From: a virus
Reading direction: 5' to 3' (one strand)
DNA length: 31,493 bases
Virus record (IMG/VR): IMGVR_UViG_3300033148_006747
Span: 1 to 31,493 of that record
Positions within the stretch are counted from its first letter, which is position 1; every line of letters begins with the position of its first letter. The position numbers and the translations under genes were made by a program. The notes beneath the pieces were generated by a model. It was given only the letters and a program-made list of their open reading frames with translations. It was not told the DNA's origin and ran no database searches. This document shows positions 7,601-30,190 of the stretch, one piece after another.

Positions 7601-9391
7601 TTAGAGCAACCCCCTTAAAATCTGCAGAAGCTGACCGTTCGAGCGCACGTCTTCAATAGATGCGCCCACCACGACGGCTCTATTCCTTCTTATAGCGTCG
7701 GCAAAACTTTGAGAATCAACTGCATATATCGTGATATTGGTGGTTTGAGCTGGTGCTACTCCTCTCGGAAGCACTGTCTCGCCTCTCTGAAGGATTGCCG
7801 GAAATTCATCAGGCCCGAGCCCCGAATGCAACTTAGGTGCATGAGCAAAAAGCGTGGTAGGTACTGGACGCACCGGGGGCGCTATTTCACCAACAATTCC
7901 ACCCTGATGAAAGAAAAGCCCGCCACCCATTAGCTTCCCGCCTAGCCACTCACCAGCAGCAGGTATTACTTGACGCACAAACATTTGACCCATCACATCC
8001 GCAATAGACCGCTGTATCGAAGTCAAAAATCCGCTCACATAATCGCCAAAATCCTTGAACTTTCCGCGCATAACATCAAAGAAAAAGTCACTGAAATTTT
8101 GCTCCATAGCTTCTGCTGTGCGCTGCGAAAGATCAGCCATATAATCAAAAGATTGCTCAGCAGTCGCATTTACGCTCTCAAGTGCCTCAGTTCCATGATA
8201 AGTATAGGCCTCCCATACCTCGTCAGAAATGCGCATCATCTCCGCATTGACTTCTTTCCATGTATCCAGGCCACGCTCGGCCGCCTCTATCTCAATGCGA
8301 ACTGCTGATTCCTTGGCATATTTCAGAGCTTCAAGGTCTGCCTGGTAGGCCTCCTTCGCCCTGGCAGCCATATCTTTATGGGCCTCGCGCCATTGCTGGT
8401 TGATTTCTTCTAAAACTTCGAAGGTACTGGCTTCGTATTGCCGGAGGGCTTGAGTGTGCTCAGATTGGTCAAGAGCTAAAGTAGGAAGGCTAACTTTACC
8501 TCTTCCTTTTCGCGGCCCATAAAGAGTCATGGCTAATTCCGCATCCAGGCCTTTCATTTCCATAGCTAAGCTCTCGGTGAATTTACGCCAAGATTCTACA
8601 TAGTCAGCCCACTTATCCGCCCAGCCAATTGGCGTATATTCATAGATAAAATCAGCGAATCCACTTGCCACCTCTGTGGAAAGCCAATTCCAGAAATTCT
8701 GCATATCTGTTTTTAGGCGTTGAATCTTATCGGCAGTGGTATCTGATTGATCCCCCAAGCGGCGCATCAGGTCCTCGCCTGCCTCAAGGGCTGCATTGAG
8801 AAACGCTTGCTTCTTCTCAGCGTCTGTGAGTTGACTGGCGGTTTTGCCAAGGGCCGCGGCATAACGTTCGTTAGCCTCTTTGACACGAATGATGATACCT
8901 AGATTATCCAGGATCATCTTGCTTTGCCGCGCAATACCAAGAGTAATGTCCTCAAATGCCTTAGTGACTTCCTGGCCTGTCATTTTGGCGGTGGCCCGCG
9001 CAATAGCCATAAGGCGGGTAAGTGCCTCGGGCTGGATACCCATCATCATAGCGGTTCCTGCCGCCTGGATCATAGAAGCAGTGTCAACAGTTTCACGTGA
9101 AACGCGCTTGAGGTCTGCAATAATCTGACTGGCCGAGGCATTGTAAGAAGCGGCTAGGCGTTCAAAGGTCCTGCGTTGCTGAGCGATACGAGCGCCATGC
9201 TCCACCATGTCCCATGCCTCGCGAATAGCATAGATGGAACCTGTCACCTTAGCAGCCACTGACATCATATCAGTAAAAGACCGCTGCATGCCCTGCATTC
9301 TAGCCTCGAGGCGGCTGGCTGCTTGATTGATTACGCGTGTAGCCCGATCTTGGGCCTCCAGCACTACTCTGAGTTTTTCATCACCCAGCAT
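7601..9391 (-). CDS. Tail tape measure protein
   Basis: A 596-residue, largely alpha-helical protein after the tail chaperones, the expected place of the tape measure. The N-terminal ~250 residues are amphipathic helix (VVLEAQDRATRVINQAASRL; FEDITLGIARQSKMILDNLG), with the N-L-G-I-x-I-x-V-K-E-A and K-x-A-F-L-N-A-A-L sequences usual in tape measure proteins. The C-terminal part has FKDFGDYVSGFLTSIQRSIA and a late FFHQGGIVGE segment, as in lambda-type tape measures. Length relates to tail length; at about 0.15 nm per residue it would specify roughly 90 nm, a shorter tail than lambda. It assembles with the G and G-T chaperones and is later ejected with the DNA. Confidence 0.88.
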   Translation of the reverse strand: MLGDEKLRVVLEAQDRATRVINQAASRLEARMQGMQRSFTDMMSVAAKVTGSIYAIREAWDMVEHGARIAQQRRTFERLAASYNASASQIIADLKRVSRETVDTASMIQAAGTAMMMGIQPEALTRLMAIARATAKMTGQEVTKAFEDITLGIARQSKMILDNLGIIIRVKEANERYAAALGKTASQLTDAEKKQAFLNAALEAGEDLMRRLGDQSDTTADKIQRLKTDMQNFWNWLSTEVASGFADFIYEYTPIGWADKWADYVESWRKFTESLAMEMKGLDAELAMTLYGPRKGRGKVSLPTLALDQSEHTQALRQYEASTFEVLEEINQQWREAHKDMAARAKEAYQADLEALKYAKESAVRIEIEAAERGLDTWKEVNAEMMRISDEVWEAYTYHGTEALESVNATAEQSFDYMADLSQRTAEAMEQNFSDFFFDVMRGKFKDFGDYVSGFLTSIQRSIADVMGQMFVRQVIPAAGEWLGGKLMGGGLFFHQGGIVGEIAPPVRPVPTTLFAHAPKLHSGLGPDEFPAILQRGETVLPRGVAPAQTTNITIYAVDSQSFADAIRRNRAVVVGASIEDVRSNGQLLQILRGLL

Positions 9392-9399
9392 TCTAGCTT

Positions 9400-10035
9400 C
9401 TAGATCCTTTCTCCTCTTAGTTTACGATGGAAATTGATTCTTATATTATCCCTCGCTTCACGTTCATGCACCTGCCAAAAAGGTTCTATGATGGGCCTGG
9501 CTGGCACCCGGAGCCTAGCGGTTCCCTTGCGCAGAAAAAAATATTTACGGTATTTAGACCGCTTGGACATAGACGCGCCCAAGCGCCGAAACATTCTGCG
9601 CATTTCATCAGTCACGTCCAGCATAAAACCTTCTTGCTGCATGCGGGCTATACGTTTCCAGCTTTTGGATACTTTCGGCCCCACCCAACCTACTTCCATG
9701 CGAAAGTTCGGAGCCTTATGGACTTGATAGCGTATCGCAGTGGCAAGCCTAGCCAGAGGCGTTTTCTTAGGGCGGTTTAGCAGGCCAACTCTGCCAAATT
9801 CCTTTATCTGCCTGGCCCCGCGTAGATTGCTAGCCTTAGTACGGGCACCTATTACGCTTAACGGCGCAAAGGGCCGACCACCCGGGGCGCCCTGGCGGAT
9901 TTCCTTAATGAGCTGGCGGCGCAGCCGGTAACCTTCAATCTTGATGGCCGTTTCAAGGGCCTTATTGGCCTTGGCCGCCTTGGCCTTGAGGTTTCGGTCT
10001 AGAGTTTTTAATCCCTTGATGGTGGCCTTGATCAT
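9400..10035 (-). CDS. Virion morphogenesis / tail completion-like protein (Mu gpG or HK97 gp10-like)
   Basis: A strongly basic 211-residue protein. The opening MIKATIKGLKTLDRNLKAKA and the late RVPARPIIEPFWQVHE motif match the general pattern of tail completion proteins, which end with a PARPF-like motif followed by a helix. It would cap or join the tail to the head. The start (10035) lies inside the frameshift extension of the chaperone gene, overlapping it by 74 bases in another frame. Its place between the chaperones and the tape measure is unusual, since completion proteins normally precede the tail tube. The assignment rests on motif resemblance only. Confidence 0.65.
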   Translation of the reverse strand: MIKATIKGLKTLDRNLKAKAAKANKALETAIKIEGYRLRRQLIKEIRQGAPGGRPFAPLSVIGARTKASNLRGARQIKEFGRVGLLNRPKKTPLARLATAIRYQVHKAPNFRMEVGWVGPKVSKSWKRIARMQQEGFMLDVTDEMRRMFRRLGASMSKRSKYRKYFFLRKGTARLRVPARPIIEPFWQVHEREARDNIRINFHRKLRGERI

Positions 10036-10348
10036 GGCTTTTTACCCAATGATCTAAAGTTTGTTTTTCAAGCGCTTGGATTTTTCCAAATACAGCAGGC
10101 GATAAATCAACCCCTAATAACCTTGCCACCTTCATCATTACACCATAATCTAAGCCAATAGGACCTGATGGGCCAGATCTCCATTGCGTTTGTACTGCCT
10201 GCCATAATTCCCATGCCTCTTGATTTTCAGGTCTGAGCTCTGGCTGCTTCCATTCACAGTTATTGCAATCTGCTTTTCCTGCCTTCTTACACGCCTTGCA
10301 ATATTCAATTCTCTGCTCATCTATGCACCAGGCCCAGACCTGTTCTAG
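9962..10348 (-). CDS. Tail assembly chaperone T-part, made as G-T fusion by -1 frameshift
   Basis: This frame has no start codon. It opens at the slippery heptamer at the end of gene G and runs 128 codons to a TAA at 9962-9964. The residues WELWQAVQTQWRSGPSGPIG followed by LDYGV match the DUF1799 pattern, the family of gpT-type tail chaperone extensions. Slippage would give a product of about 215 residues: the G part (87) plus this part. In lambda the G and G-T proteins load onto the tape measure and recruit tail tube subunits. Early in the extension is CKAC-x7-CNNC, which looks like a small zinc-binding knuckle. The last 74 bases overlap the next gene. This gene cannot be seen by a search for ORFs starting with ATG. 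Confidence 0.85.
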   Translation of the reverse strand, partial: LEQVWAWCIDEQRIEYCKACKKAGKADCNNCEWKQPELRPENQEAWELWQAVQTQWRSGPSGPIGLDYGVMMKVARLLGVDLSPAVFGKIQALEKQTLDHWVKSHDQGHHQGIKNSRPKPQGQGGQGQ

Positions 10349-10608
10349 TTTTTTATTTCGTCCGCCGCGGGATATGTTTCACGCAAAATGGCATCCCATA
10401 ATTTAAGGGCATCACGGTTATCCATTTCGTCTATGGCCGCAAGATCTTCAGGCCCAAAAACTATCTCAAAAGTGGCATCCTGCGCCGCATCCAAATCCTC
10501 GCCTTTTAAAGCTAATAAGACAAAGCCCTGTTCGCGCAGAGTCCTGATCTCCTTTCGTTTGAGGCCACGAACTTGAAACCTCCGACCGTTTATCTCTATT
10601 TCACGCAT
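10345..10608 (-). CDS. Tail assembly chaperone G-like protein
   Basis: An 87-residue acidic protein with the chaperone G layout: a short beta opening (MREIEINGRRFQVRGLKRKE), then helices ending in the acidic FGPEDLAAIDEMDNRDALK segment. I place the start at 10608, where ATG follows a GAGG site at good spacing. The longer frame from 10683 would run through a palindromic repeat and start with a Cys/Pro-rich peptide, so it is rejected. The gene follows the tail tube, as expected. Its last three codons are ATA AAA AAC before TAG, which contain the A_AAA_AAC slippery heptamer that gives a second, longer G-T product. Confidence 0.88.
   Translation of the reverse strand: MREIEINGRRFQVRGLKRKEIRTLREQGFVLLALKGEDLDAAQDATFEIVFGPEDLAAIDEMDNRDALKLWDAILRETYPAADEIKN
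10348..10354 (-). promoter_or_regulatory. -1 programmed ribosomal frameshift site A_AAA_AAC
   Basis: On the minus strand the end of the G gene reads, in frame, ATA AAA AAC TAG. The heptamer A AAA AAC fits X XXY YYZ exactly, and it lies directly against the stop codon. A -1 shift here continues into a 128-codon open frame with the sequence features of the T chaperone. This is the known arrangement of siphophage G/G-T genes, here with one of the most efficient bacterial slippery sequences. Whether a downstream stem-loop enhances it was not folded. Confidence 0.88.
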
Positions 10609-10643
10609 AATTACCTCGCTTTGCTCGGTGTTGTCCCTGTCTG

Positions 10644-10679
10644 ACGCCCGCCTGACCATCGGGCAGGGCAGGCAGGCGT
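10644..10679. repeat. GC-rich palindromic (REP-like) element
   Basis: ACGCCCGCCTG (10644-10654) and CAGGCAGGCGT (10669-10679) form an inverted repeat with one mismatch around a 14-base loop. It lies between the tail tube stop and the G start. It shares the CCTGCC/GGCAGG core with other palindromes near 17180 and 17700, so it seems to belong to a dispersed family in this genome. Confidence 0.6.
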
Positions 10680-10690
10680 TCACCGTTGAC

Positions 10691-10718
10691 CGTGAACTGT
10701 GAACCGTGAACTGTGAAC
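10691..10718. repeat. Two perfect tandem copies of a 14-bp unit
   Basis: CGTGAACTGTGAAC occurs twice in a row (10691-10704 and 10705-10718), preceded by degenerate copies in GTTCACCGTTGAC (10679-10691). The array abuts the tail tube stop codon. Inverted forms of the half unit (GTTCAC/GTGAAC) could pair. Its origin is unclear; short arrays of this kind occur between genes in many bacteria. Confidence 0.7.
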
Positions 10719-11666
10719 CTACAAGCTACTTAAACTATTCGTCACCCTTGCCACTATAGCGCTAGCCTCAGACCCATCATTATAATAGGCAGAAAAATCT
10801 AGATCTACCAAGAGCCCCTGGGGGCCATCAATACTAGGCATACGTTCCTGGAACTTTAGCTCCTGGATCTCCACCTCAAAAATACTGCTAGAAGATGCCT
10901 GGATAGTCACCTTAAGGCTAGTCTCAGTCTGATTTTTGGCTTTAGTGAGCAATGTGACATCTTTAAATAATCCCTTTATATTCCCAGTAACCGCTACTTG
11001 CCCTTCTGGCAGGCTACCTCTGGCTCCTTGGCTGTTGATGGGATATATATCTGGGTCTAGACCAAACTCCACGGCTATATCAAAACTGGTAAGATCGCCT
11101 GCCGCAGAGCCTCCCTCAGTCACAGTGGCTTGACTATTATATAGCCGTGTGAACGAAGGTTCTGTGGGTGTAGCATCGAAAGCTGATGTCTCAATGCTAT
11201 AATCTGCACCTAGCACGCCCAGGGTTGCCACAAGCTCGCCATCACCCCCCACAGACATGGAAAATCGGCTAACCTTGCATCCCACATAGCGGATGTACTC
11301 ATTGGTGGCTAAATCCTCAAACCCCTCTTCGAAAGTAAAGCTAGGCATGGTGTCGCCTATTTTATACTCATGAGTGTAAGGGTCTGTGCCAGTGGTGGTT
11401 GGATCGCCAAACATACACTTTAGCCAGTAGGCCATCATAGTGCTGTCTATAGGGATATTAATGTCGCCGCCAATATCTAGATTGCCGAAGAACGGTGTGA
11501 CAGGGTTACGGTTGCCTCGCAAAGTAGCTGGTTGTTGGGGCGGCCTATTAGGGCTGAGGGATACCGGCGGGTTAACATAAAGGGAATATCCATCAGTTGC
11601 CGCAGTCCCAAAGGTACTCTCAAAGCCCATCAAAATCTTTACATTTGAACCTTTTTGTTGGGCCAT
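10719..11666 (-). CDS. Major tail tube protein
   Basis: A 315-residue protein with the tail tube pattern: an opening GSNVKILMGFESTFGTAATD, an early SLSPNRPPQQPATLRGNRNP loop, and a two-part beta-rich body with GGDINIPIDSTMMAYWL and a later FDIAVEFGLDPDIYPINSQG segment. This resembles the tail tube family that stacks as hexamers around the tape measure to form the DNA channel. Its position fits, right after the tail terminator and before the chaperones. The length is greater than that of minimal tube proteins, so an added surface domain is likely. The start ATG (11666) follows a run of purines. Confidence 0.8.
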   Translation of the reverse strand: MAQQKGSNVKILMGFESTFGTAATDGYSLYVNPPVSLSPNRPPQQPATLRGNRNPVTPFFGNLDIGGDINIPIDSTMMAYWLKCMFGDPTTTGTDPYTHEYKIGDTMPSFTFEEGFEDLATNEYIRYVGCKVSRFSMSVGGDGELVATLGVLGADYSIETSAFDATPTEPSFTRLYNSQATVTEGGSAAGDLTSFDIAVEFGLDPDIYPINSQGARGSLPEGQVAVTGNIKGLFKDVTLLTKAKNQTETSLKVTIQASSSSIFEVEIQELKFQERMPSIDGPQGLLVDLDFSAYYNDGSEASAIVARVTNSLSSL

Positions 11667-11681
11667 TTTAAATGTCCCCCC

Positions 11682-12149
11682 TTAACCTAGAGTGTTATCT
11701 CCAATGGACAGATATTTGCGGAACCTGAACTCCAGAAACCCATAGACATCGGGCAATGAGCCTGTGGTATCACCCCGGAGTCTGTAGCTCATGACCATAT
11801 TGTCTGGCAGGGCATCTTCGATACAGTCCACTACCAGCTCACCAAAATCCAGGATCAGTTCCAGCCCCGAGGGCTCCTCCACATCATCGGCCCTTGTCTG
11901 TAAGGCGTTCTTAGTCAAGGCCAGGTCAATGCTTAGACCATAATCCTGGATCCTCTCTTCCATGCCCTTCATGATCTCCGGCGTGTGGATCAGGATATAT
12001 GGCATATCATCCTCGCCAGGTGGGCTCTGGGTCTGAAGGTCCGCAAATATGCTCACTGCTGAATCAAAATTCAACTGGCCCCAGGCCTGGATATCTTGAT
12101 CCTGGCCCAGGGCATCGATGAATGTTTTATAGAAATCATAGTTGTTCAT
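11682..12149 (-). CDS. Tail terminator-like protein
   Basis: A 155-residue alpha/beta protein directly before the tail tube gene, where the tail terminator (lambda gpU type) normally sits. The layout fits: an N-terminal helix (YDFYKTFIDALGQDQDIQAW), a central strand reading DDMPYILIHTPEIMKG, and a C-terminal helix then strand (LELILDFGELVVDCIEDAL; SYRLRGDTTGSLPDVYGFLE). Terminators form the ring that stops tail polymerisation and receives the head. No exact family was recognised; the call rests on position, size and predicted fold. Confidence 0.6.
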   Translation of the reverse strand: MNNYDFYKTFIDALGQDQDIQAWGQLNFDSAVSIFADLQTQSPPGEDDMPYILIHTPEIMKGMEERIQDYGLSIDLALTKNALQTRADDVEEPSGLELILDFGELVVDCIEDALPDNMVMSYRLRGDTTGSLPDVYGFLEFRFRKYLSIGDNTLG

Positions 12150-20341: not shown

Positions 20342-20728
20342 TTAGCTTCTCTCTTGAATATCAAATCTAGGATCGCGGGCCTCAAAATATAATGGTTTCT
20401 TAGCGATTTCTTTTCGAATATATTCATCTGCAAATAAGGGACATTTCTTTTCAGCTCTTAATCTAAGCCTTCTCAACCGATTTTTTGCTTTTGCTTTACG
20501 TGACCACTTTTTTTTAGCAATATATTCCGGTTCCCATGTGACTACATAACCAGGATTAGCTGCAGCTATAATCTCTAACTCTTTTGGGGGCTTTTTTTCT
20601 TTATTAGCAGCCCAATTTTTTATCTCTACTGGCCCCGCTAGCCTTATAGGCATACCCTCAGGCGGCTTTGTGTACGGATTCAACCATGTGACCGACCAAA
20701 ATCCACTATAAGCGTCATTCTTACCCAT
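20342..20728 (-). CDS. Basic protein of unknown function between terminase subunits, 128 aa
   Basis: A 128-residue, strongly basic protein. The N-terminal half is aromatic (GFWSVTWLNPYTKPPEGMPI). A central run of Lys and Arg (KKKWSRKAKAKNRLRRLRLR, about 72-91) looks like a nucleic acid-binding helix. The tail ends in ARDPRFDIQERS. It overlaps the PRTase-TerS gene by 8 bases and ends 3 bases before TerL, so it is clearly part of the packaging operon. I do not recognise a family. A DNA-binding packaging helper would fit. Confidence 0.6.
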   Translation of the reverse strand: MGKNDAYSGFWSVTWLNPYTKPPEGMPIRLAGPVEIKNWAANKEKKPPKELEIIAAANPGYVVTWEPEYIAKKKWSRKAKAKNRLRRLRLRAEKKCPLFADEYIRKEIAKKPLYFEARDPRFDIQERS

Positions 20729-21824
20729 CAGTAAACATCACGTGAAATTCCCTGGTGGAGGCATACTCGTTCATCAGCTCGCCATAAGCGTCGTGTAAAA
20801 ACCTGATAAGGTTCGGAAGCTTTGATGTATCTCCTCCCACCAGTTCTATTATTTCTCCTGCCTTTTCGTGGATCATGGCCTCAAAACCTGCCATGAGCAC
20901 GCCAGCACGGGCGGCCAGCTCCAGCTCAAAATCTGCCCTGGGGATAAGAAGCCCTTCTTCACGTTGCCTTTTGAGTTTAGCAATTTTGACCTGCTCTTCT
21001 CTAAAGGCTAGCTCAAGCTTCTCGCGGGTGCGTCGCAACTCTTCGTCATCCAGCTTGAGAGTTAACTCCTTAGGCCTAAGCCATGTGCGAGCATATTTCT
21101 GCACTGCCTTTAGAGAGAAAGTGCCATCCTTTTCAGGGCGAAGCTTGCCTTCTTTCTTAACGTGATTGTATATCGTGCTCTTCGATACCTTCCACTCATT
21201 CTTGAGGTATTCGTAGACTTCAAGGGTGTTTTTAAATGTATCCTTCCCGGCAATGGAAGGCTCAGAATCTTTGTGATTGACCTTTAGTGTTATGTCCTCG
21301 GCTTCATTTGGTTCGAGCCTGTAGTAAAACGCCAGACATGCAGGCTTCACCTCAAAACCAAAAGATTCAAGTCTCTCTTTAAAGTGCACGATGGTCCGTC
21401 CAGTTGTGCATATGTCATCGACCAATAGGATTTTTTCTCCTTTTGTTATGCCAGTGATTATGTAACTGCCGCCATAATCATCCGGTAGGGGCTTGTTGTG
21501 GTTGTATTTGCGAGTTTCGACGTTTCTTATCCTTGAGATATTTGCCCCAAATAGTCTTTGTAGCTGATTCGGCTGGTCTGATGGCTTGCTGGGTGGAATA
21601 GCCACTATCTTATCGCAACTTAATTCAGCAGCCAAAGATTCACACAGCGCTTTTACCTCTGCTGCGTGCTTGCCTTTTTTCTTAAAATCAAACACCCATT
21701 GTGTCTCGGTCTTCAATTCGTCCGAGTGATCTAGCTGGCGCAATTTTCCCAGTGAAGGTAGATATAGTTTGAAACCATAAATACCCTTCCAGATTAAAAC
21801 TCTATGTTTGAGTTCCTGTGCCAT
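20721..21824 (-). CDS. Phosphoribosyltransferase fused to terminase small subunit
   Basis: One unbroken 367-residue frame holds two recognisable parts. Residues 1-~175 look like a type I phosphoribosyltransferase (ComF-like). The PRPP loop is LLVDDICTTGRT (133-144), with a flexible-loop region (YNHNKPLPDDYGG) before it. Residues ~195-367 look like a phage small terminase: an HTH (TLEVYEYLKNEW with KVSKSTIYNHVKKEGKLRP, 200-229), a charged helix (EELRRTREKLELAFREEQVK), and an ending IELVGGDTSKLPNLIRFL with NEYASTREFHVMF. TerS recognises packaging sites and works with the TerL gene just downstream. No Met lies at the junction. A PRTase on TerS is not an arrangement I know. The gene starts 4 bases after the SLOG gene. 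Confidence 0.85.
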   Translation of the reverse strand: MAQELKHRVLIWKGIYGFKLYLPSLGKLRQLDHSDELKTETQWVFDFKKKGKHAAEVKALCESLAAELSCDKIVAIPPSKPSDQPNQLQRLFGANISRIRNVETRKYNHNKPLPDDYGGSYIITGITKGEKILLVDDICTTGRTIVHFKERLESFGFEVKPACLAFYYRLEPNEAEDITLKVNHKDSEPSIAGKDTFKNTLEVYEYLKNEWKVSKSTIYNHVKKEGKLRPEKDGTFSLKAVQKYARTWLRPKELTLKLDDEELRRTREKLELAFREEQVKIAKLKRQREEGLLIPRADFELELAARAGVLMAGFEAMIHEKAGEIIELVGGDTSKLPNLIRFLHDAYGELMNEYASTREFHVMFTDG

Positions 21825-27811: not shown

Positions 27812-30190
27812 TCAGGTTTCGTCCAATTTGCGCCAGATGGTACCCTCAGGGGTATCCACAAGCTCAATGCCCATATCCCGAAGCTGATTACGTATAGTAT
27901 CAGCAGTATCCCAATCCTTTTTCTTTCGGGCGGTCTCTCTTTCTTTGATCAAGGCCATGATTTCCTCGCTTATTTGGTGTGGTTCCAGATGCATCACACC
28001 CAGGACGGTATTGATTCGCTCAAGTGCTTTGAGCGTTTTTGTTTTATCATCTTGGGAGAGGCCGTGGCGGTCCATTATACGATTAATCTGTCTCATAAAA
28101 TGGAAGAGAGAGGCAAGACCTGCGGCTATATTCATATCGTCGTCCATGGCCTCTGTGAACCCATGGCGCAGATCATAGATAAGCTGGTCAATTTCCTGAT
28201 TCGGGGGGGCTTCGGCACAGAAATGCAATTTTTGGACAAAGCTGTCTAAATGGGCCAAGGTGTTTTTGACTGAATCCAGTTTTGCCCAAGAAAATATGAG
28301 GGGCTTGCGATAGTGACGACTCATGAGGAAATAACGCACTTCTCTGCCTGTGTAGCCCTCTTTTAGAATATCTCTCAAAAGGAGTAAGTCAGGGGCTTGC
28401 GAGTCGGCCCCTTTATTGTTGTTCACCGTCACCAATTCATTATGCAGCCAAAATTGGGCTGGTGGGCTGCCACTTAAGGCCTTGTTGATGGCTATGGCAT
28501 TTTCATGGTGAGGAAATATAAGCTCCACGCCACTGGTATGTATATCATAGGTCTCACCAGCAAATTTCCGTGCAATGGCAGAACACTCTAGATGCCAGCT
28601 GGGTCTTACGTTGCCCCAAGGGGTCTGATAAAAGATCCCTTTTTTCAACTCATTTAAGGTAGACCTTTTTAGTAATGTGAAGTCCCTAGGATTGTCCTTC
28701 TCATATTGATCTAAATCTACGGTTTTACCCAGTTGAATCTTGTCAAGATCGATCTTTGAAAGGTTTCCATATCCCTTTGCACGAGATATGTCAAAATAGA
28801 TGGAGCGGAACTTTTCGTAAGCAAGGCCCTTTTCCACAAGCTTTTTAGTCAGGGAGATCATCTCGTCAACATGATCAGAGGCCTTTGGATAGTGGGTCGC
28901 CTTTTTGATGTTGAGTTTATCCAGGTCTTCCATGAAGGCCTTATAATAACCCTCTGTATACTCCTTTAGCGACATATCGGCCTTTTCTGCTCCCTCAATT
29001 GTGCGGTCGTCCAGGTCTGTGACATTCATAATATAAATGACCTTGAATCCCTTGAACTCCAGGTAGCGTCTCAATAGATCTGCAAACACAAACCTCCTGC
29101 ACTGCCCCAGGTTGATTAATTGGCAGAGGGTTGGGCCGCAGGAATAGATAGTCACCTGGTTTTCCTCCAGGGGTATAAATTCTTCTTTCTTGCGAGTGAG
29201 CGTGTTGTAAAAACGTATGCCGGAGGTCTTTTTTACAGTGAACAGGGGGGTACTCAGATATCGCTCGCCTCCGTCAGGCAAGACCACCACAATGCGGCCC
29301 TTGTCCATTTCAGCAGCAAGCCGCAACGCTGCTGCCATGGCTGCTCCGGAACTCATACCAACGAACACCCCCTCTTTTTTTGCCAGTTCCCTGGCCGTAT
29401 GAAAGGCCTCTTCATCATCAATATGAATTATTCGGTCCAGAAGCTCTCGCTGAAAAATCCCGGGTTGATAAGACTCTTTCATGTTTTTGAGGCCTTGAAT
29501 CTTATGGCCCAAGTAGGGTTCCACCCCTACCACCTGTATACGTGGGTTGAGTTCCTTAAGACGACGAGCAATCCCCATAAGCGTACCAGTGGTTCCCATG
29601 GTCGCCATGGCCACATCCAACTGCCCCTGAGTTTGCTTCCATATCTCCATGGCCGTCCCGTGGTAATGGGCCTTCCAATTGGCCTCATTGTTGAATTGAT
29701 CTGCCAGCCAATACCTATGAGGCTCTTCACGTACCAGTTTGTAAACATATTCAATGGCCCCGTCAGTGCTAAGCCGTGCAGGGGTGAAGCGAATTTCAGC
29801 GCCCATGGCCTTGAGGATCTTGACCCTTTCTTGGCTTACGGACTCGGACATGACCAGTAGGATCCGGTAGCCTTTGACTGCAGCCACCAGGGCAAGACCG
29901 ATACCAGTGTTTCCGCTTGTGGCCTCAAGGATGATTTTATCTTTAGTAAGCTCGCCTCTTTTTTCAGCTTCTTCGATCATATAAAGGGCAGGCCTGTCTT
30001 TTACCGATCCGCCCGGGTTGAAGCACTCCAATTTGGCCAGGATTTGCACTTGACTATTGGTAGCCAGCTTTTGAATCGGGACAAGAGGGGTATTCCCAAT
30101 CAGGTCCAAGATGTTGTCGAACTTTTTGGCCATGTAATGCAGCTCTCCGTCAAAGTTAAGCCTGTCACTATATCCAACCATTTGGTTCAT
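27812..30190 (-). CDS. Cysteine synthase fused to a degenerate cysteinyl-tRNA synthetase-like domain
   Basis: A 792-residue two-domain protein. Residues ~20-320 are cysteine synthase (O-acetylserine sulfhydrylase, PLP-dependent): IGNTPLV, the PLP lysine Lys64 in NPGGSVKDR, the phosphate loop MGTTGTLMG, and SSGAA near the end. Residues ~325-792 align with CysRS, for example YLEFKGFKVIYIMNVTDLDD and REVRYFLMSRHYRKPLIFS. But HIGH is INLGQCR, KMSKS is replaced by NNNKGADSQAPD, and the fourth zinc ligand in FPHHENE is Ala (FPHHENA). Cys351, Cys536 and His561 remain. The second part is probably not a working synthetase. Met20 (30133) is an alternative start closer to the usual CysK N-terminus. A normal cysS should exist elsewhere. 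Confidence 0.9.
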   Translation of the reverse strand: MNQMVGYSDRLNFDGELHYMAKKFDNILDLIGNTPLVPIQKLATNSQVQILAKLECFNPGGSVKDRPALYMIEEAEKRGELTKDKIILEATSGNTGIGLALVAAVKGYRILLVMSESVSQERVKILKAMGAEIRFTPARLSTDGAIEYVYKLVREEPHRYWLADQFNNEANWKAHYHGTAMEIWKQTQGQLDVAMATMGTTGTLMGIARRLKELNPRIQVVGVEPYLGHKIQGLKNMKESYQPGIFQRELLDRIIHIDDEEAFHTARELAKKEGVFVGMSSGAAMAAALRLAAEMDKGRIVVVLPDGGERYLSTPLFTVKKTSGIRFYNTLTRKKEEFIPLEENQVTIYSCGPTLCQLINLGQCRRFVFADLLRRYLEFKGFKVIYIMNVTDLDDRTIEGAEKADMSLKEYTEGYYKAFMEDLDKLNIKKATHYPKASDHVDEMISLTKKLVEKGLAYEKFRSIYFDISRAKGYGNLSKIDLDKIQLGKTVDLDQYEKDNPRDFTLLKRSTLNELKKGIFYQTPWGNVRPSWHLECSAIARKFAGETYDIHTSGVELIFPHHENAIAINKALSGSPPAQFWLHNELVTVNNNKGADSQAPDLLLLRDILKEGYTGREVRYFLMSRHYRKPLIFSWAKLDSVKNTLAHLDSFVQKLHFCAEAPPNQEIDQLIYDLRHGFTEAMDDDMNIAAGLASLFHFMRQINRIMDRHGLSQDDKTKTLKALERINTVLGVMHLEPHQISEEIMALIKERETARKKKDWDTADTIRNQLRDMGIELVDTPEGTIWRKLDET

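Follow-up and report, generated by a model that had tools for sequence, protein, structure and literature searches.

We propose, at a probability of about 95%, that the DNA examined here encodes the G/G-T pair of tail assembly chaperones of a tailed prophage, and that the longer of the two proteins is made by a -1 frameshift of the ribosome at the heptamer A_AAA_AAC. The stretch of DNA under study, hereafter the window, covers positions 1 to 31,493 of the IMG/VR virus record IMGVR_UViG_3300033148_006747 (31,493 nucleotides; one strand, 5' to 3'), and it is tailed-phage (prophage) sequence. The heptamer, its phase, the relation of the two reading frames, the domain encoded behind the slip site and the conservation of this arrangement were all observed directly, and they carry the argument that we set out below.

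Two overlapping frames and the identity of their products

The sequence-only reading had placed a slippery heptamer immediately ahead of the stop codon of G, and this is precisely what we found. On the minus strand, G ends with GAA ATA AAA AAC TAG; AAAAAAC occupies 10354-10348, is read in the phase A_AAA_AAC, and abuts the TAG codon. As had likewise been claimed, the -1 frame is open for 128 codons until it reaches the stop at 9964-9962, so that the 87-residue G would be extended to a fusion with a computed length of 215 amino acids, in keeping with the ~215-residue product expected. The assertion that T possesses no start codon, and that standard gene callers consequently miss it, also proved correct. 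ATG, GTG, TTG and CTG are all absent from the T frame before position 10138, which is already inside the DUF1799 domain, and for this reason none of the entries in the list of start-to-stop open reading frames covers T. The window thus presents the two hallmarks of a G/G-T pair, namely a second open reading frame in the -1 frame that lacks a start of its own and is situated between the genes for the major tail protein and the tape measure protein, and an in-phase X_XXY_YYZ heptamer within the overlap. By itself, AAAAAAC is not rare in the window (10 copies versus 6.9 expected); its significance derives from its phase, its position at the stop codon, the DUF1799 frame behind it and its conservation, and not from the heptamer alone. 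The coordinates of all relevant features are compiled in Table 1.

Table 1. Features of the G/T region of the window and of the genes next to it.
Feature	Coordinates	Strand	Basis or remark
G, named tail assembly chaperone by its position and the G-T arrangement	10345..10608	(-)	87 aa, ATG start
Stop codon TAG of G	10347-10345	(-)	read from sequence
Shine-Dalgarno-like GAGG	10614..10617	(-)	read from sequence; 5 nt ahead of the G start codon
Slippery heptamer A_AAA_AAC, X_XXY_YYZ phase of G, abutting TAG	10348..10354	(-)	frame analysis
T extension, -1 frame, 128 codons plus stop at 9964-9962	9962..10348	(-)	G-T fusion of 215 aa
DUF1799 (PF08809) domain within T	10052..10246	(-)	Pfam match
Cys4 motif C-x2-C-x7-C-x2-C-E, T residues 17, 20, 28, 31	10256..10300	(-)	six-phage alignment
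Tail tube protein (Phage_tube_2), just upstream of G	10719..11666	(-)	Pfam E 3e-51
Tail completion/Neck1-like protein	9400..10035	(-)	phrog_222 E 5.5e-8; shares 74 nt with the 3' end of T
Tape measure protein, on which G and G-T presumably act	7601..9391	(-)	phrog_3779 E 3e-8; position

The lack of any gpT/DUF1799 match in the -1 frame had been named beforehand as an outcome that would count against a frameshift. When the profile search was run, however, DUF1799 matched strongly, with an E-value of 3.9e-16 and a score of 59.5 bits against a curated cut-off of 26 (E 5.2e-18 in a six-frame search of the entire record). Among the PHROG families, T was assigned to phrog_680 (E 3e-20), and it also matched the C-terminal half of the 213-residue phrog_17368. 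The AlphaFold2 model of T reached a mean pLDDT of 87 and matched the tape measure chaperone of phage Solomon in the Foldseek viral library with a probability of 1.00; searches of the PDB with T, by profile and by fold, returned no match. The description of T as a gpT/DUF1799-type protein therefore stands with respect to DUF1799, but not with respect to a detectable homology to gpT of lambda. We rejected T as a lambda gpT homologue, as hhalign gave a probability of only 0.1% when an alignment of 48 T sequences was compared with lambda T, which falls into phrog_39/32165 and not, like T of the window, into phrog_680. DUF1799 is a positional counterpart of lambda gpT. G gave no match of its own in Pfam and PHROG, and a tblastn search of phage records with the window G found none. 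Pfam searches with G of the window and with that of the related contig L010 were both without a match, so that the Phage_TAC_4 type found in T1-like phages is not recognisable in these proteins.

Pfam and PHROG matches establish the gene order tail tube, G/T, neck and tape measure. The tail completion/Neck1 (gp10-like) gene (9400-10035 in the window) consequently follows the chaperone pair and precedes the tape measure gene, instead of lying upstream of the tail tube gene. A similar protein is encoded at the same place in the related contigs L010, L011 and L014, and Acinetobacter phage Loki shows the same placement with its gp14 (L154:3388-3825). Three observations concern other parts of the window. 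A 367-residue open reading frame beside the terminase genes (20721-21824, minus strand) has an N-terminal half with a phosphoribosyltransferase domain, followed by a further C-terminal part. The segment 25667-25744 is similar to the 3' portion of a serine-type tRNA, scores 27 bits with the tRNA-Sec model, which is below the cut-off, and yielded no whole tRNA with ARAGORN; as it adjoins the switch from phage to host-like genes, it is probably the prophage attachment site. In the host-like flank, a single 792-residue open reading frame (27812-30190, minus strand) joins a cysteine-synthase-like PLP enzyme (PALP) to a cysteinyl-tRNA synthetase.

Conservation of the heptamer and alternatives to ribosomal slippage

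Single-sequence protein scans of IMG/VR recovered the same phage only, and an alignment query was needed to reach its relatives. An alignment of the T part and three homologues from phages was therefore built, and genomes from IMG/VR and GTDB were searched for the T protein only, which kept the slip site out of the selection of loci. It yielded 145 usable loci, 91 of which were non-redundant (<85% nucleotide identity to each other) and stemmed from isolates, prophages and metagenomes. Although the heptamer pattern permitted any XXX-AAA/TTT-N in -1 relation to the upstream open reading frame, 87 of these 91 loci carried a heptamer that either abutted the G stop or lay 3 nt ahead of it, as compared with 6 of 1840 control ORF ends from the same loci, and all 87 were either AAAAAAC or GGGAAAC. 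Two loci, L011 and L014, carry AAAAAAC farther from the stop, which raises the number of loci with an in-phase heptamer to 89 of 91. AAAAAAC is represented 62 times and GGGAAAC 27 times among them, and the last position is C without exception (89/89). In 77 loci the heptamer touches the stop codon (0 nt), in 10 it is 3 nt away, and the two remaining loci have spacings of 39 and 108 nt. At the annotated shift of phage Sweeny (L004), the heptamer is truly absent; in L130, GGGAAAC is in place, but a stop codon breaks the T frame. In a second set of 12 further loci, a script scored 10 and inspection 11, the difference being L159 with its AAAAAAC before TGA. The twelfth, L164, does not possess the usual heptamer at its G-T junction (around 1340), and this DUF1799 locus may use a different slip site.

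These relatives bear directly on the alternatives to a programmed -1 frameshift. RNA polymerase stuttering on the six A residues would place G and T into one frame in a minority of the mRNAs, and the same fusion protein would result. A run of six A is indeed present, yet it is short for polymerase slippage. Moreover, GGGAAAC with its mere three A occupies this position in 27 of the 89 related loci, so that a long A run is not the conserved element; what is conserved is a heptamer of the form X_XXY_YYZ phased with the codons. The interchange of GGGAAAC and AAAAAAC across the family consequently points to the tandem re-pairing of two tRNAs as the conserved property, and the variants devoid of a long homopolymer favour ribosomal over transcriptional slippage, which we regard as very unlikely. 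T might also be synthesized as a protein of its own, either through re-initiation past the G stop (coupled translation) or from a rare start codon. T begins at the G stop, DUF1799 is often annotated as a separate gene, and 71 of 89 relatives contain some ATG, GTG or TTG in the T frame. However, such a start is preceded by a Shine-Dalgarno-like core in only 11 of the 89; the window T frame reaches the interior of DUF1799 before it offers any of the usual start codons, ATG, GTG and TTG are likewise missing there in L010, L011 and L013, and separate translation would not require that a heptamer is kept in sequence and phase. We consider this route slimmer still.

A more trivial explanation would be that G-T was a single in-frame gene, whose split goes back to a mistake in assembly or sequencing or to a mutation that disrupted the frame in a prophage undergoing decay. 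There is a homopolymer at the junction, and the only near-identical contig, L002, represents the same phage over 8.4 kb and hence provides no independent check. Yet the same break, the same phase and the same kind of heptamer recur in 89 of 91 non-redundant loci; the relatives refute an error or decay, whose probability we take to be negligible. Instead, the preservation of heptamer, phase and frame relation by independent relatives upholds the programmed -1 frameshift that had been proposed from the sequence.

Predicted products, strength of the slip site and the Cys4 linker

Most ribosomes would terminate at the TAG codon and thereby release the 87-residue G. A minority would slip back by one base on A_AAA_AAC, with Lys-tRNA and Asn-tRNA re-pairing together on AAA_AAA; the TAG would then go unread, and 128 more codons would be translated to give the 215-residue G-T fusion. 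If lambda is taken as a guide, the tape measure protein should be coated by G, and tail tube subunits should be brought to it by the DUF1799 portion of the fusion. In the clade of the window, the Cys4 linker between G and DUF1799 would probably bind a metal as well. We infer the occurrence of the shift, its low efficiency, the binding partners and the binding of metal from the arrangement described above.

The earlier designation of A_AAA_AAC as a strong slippery site was overstated, because in E. coli this heptamer provokes far fewer shifts than A_AAA_AAG (PMC5009743); by the E. coli measure, the site is modest. A modest AAC in place of the highly shift-prone AAG would suit a need for only a few percent of G-T, and the invariant C at the last position of all 89 heptamers fits such a tuning of efficiency. 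The stimulating stem-loop suspected at 10280-10345 was not borne out: the stretches downstream of the heptamer folded no better than shuffled sequences (z -0.28 and +1.4), and none of the four folds computed for the window was significant (z -1.04 being another). A consensus fold across the six-phage clade was not supported, with an unfavourable covariation term; Rfam found nothing in 9000-12000, and no AGGAGG-like site was seen upstream of the heptamer. Across the family, folding downstream of the heptamer had a mean z of -1.44 (80 nt) and -0.72 (50 nt), against -0.25 and -0.18 in 50-nt control windows, a weak tendency suggesting that some relatives may have a stimulator. Such an element is optional, as low-level shifts without one have been described for certain tailed phages (PMC5009743).

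The window and five phage contigs (L010-L014) form a clade of six phages. The T parts of these contigs are 37-48% identical to that of the window over nearly the whole length, and their G proteins are 29-40% identical to the window G, with KN at the slip site in all of them. A_AAA_AAC is invariant in the six phages; the G stop, in contrast, follows it at distances of 0 (window), 3, 3, 0, 39 and 108 nt. As the stop codon moves while the heptamer stays, the slip seems to be independent of a stop codon beside the heptamer. In all six phages, T opens with L...W.W together with the stretch YC-x2-C-x(n)-C-x2-CE, whose four cysteines, arranged in two CxxC pairs, are invariant; this motif occurs in none of the 83 other loci. 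We infer from it a probable zinc knuckle within the segment that links G to DUF1799. AlphaFold2 confidence at T residues 11-30 is only 64-67, in a model built without metal. Tentatively, and at somewhat less than even odds, these six phages may represent a subfamily of frameshift-made tail chaperones whose zinc-binding knuckle is translated only after the slip, so that the rare G-T form, and not G, would gain a metal-stabilised joint through which it starts the assembly of the tail tube.

Relation to known systems and meaning for the DUF1799 family

Frameshifted G/G-T chaperones are already well known from lambda, Solomon and Loki, the latter two of which show the same site as the window. In Klebsiella phage Solomon (MT701592, CPT_Solomon_015/016), A_AAA_AAC abuts the G stop and the -1 shift leads into a DUF1799-type T domain between tail tube and tape measure, and both the annotation and the genome paper give its tape measure chaperone as a programmed frameshift product (PMC8407766). 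Unlike the window, Solomon has a G of the Pfam family Phage_TAC_4, lacks the Cys4 motif, and has no neck gene separating T from the tape measure gene. In Acinetobacter phage Loki (gp12/gp13; LN890663), AAAAAAC immediately precedes the gp12 stop, with a -1 fusion, and a tail completion gene resembling HK97 gp10 separates the chaperone from the tape measure gene, as it does in the window (PMC5313236). An assignment of its T to DUF1799 had to be rejected, as this protein is Phage_TAC_18 (E 3e-24). gpG/gpGT of lambda follow the same two-product logic: ribosomes slip by -1 shortly before G ends, about 30 G are formed per G-T, and T recruits the tail tube to the tape measure (PMC5009743); the lambda heptamer, however, is G_GGA_AAG. 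Among the g-t genes of the haloarchaeal viruses HCTV-1/-2/-5, which have archaeal hosts, those of HCTV-1 and HCTV-2 use G_GGA_AAC and A_AAA_AAC (PMC5009743); at the level of the heptamer, both therefore match the pair of sites seen in the DUF1799 family.

In the literature that we searched, DUF1799 is named in a single paper, as a separate gene beside a tail assembly chaperone. Several phage records (L006, L007) list DUF1799 proteins as separate hypothetical genes despite the frameshift signal. In PHROGs, phrog_680 (DUF1799) and phrog_17368 bear the name 'tail length tape measure protein'; the latter has 213 positions, of which 1-107 correspond to Solomon G and 109-213 to Solomon T, and hence represents a G-T fusion as one protein. 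What our analysis adds to the known systems is a heptamer rule that applies to the entire DUF1799 family and the Cys4 linker of the window's clade. Collectively, these data indicate that the large and unnamed DUF1799 family constitutes, in practice, that half of the G-T tail chaperones which is reached by frameshifting. It is marked by a single, monotonous signal, (A/G)3-AAAC, which adjoins the G stop in almost every locus. Such a rule would permit the automatic re-annotation of these genes, and the DUF1799 loci would offer a natural series for the question of how phages tune the efficiency of a frameshift.
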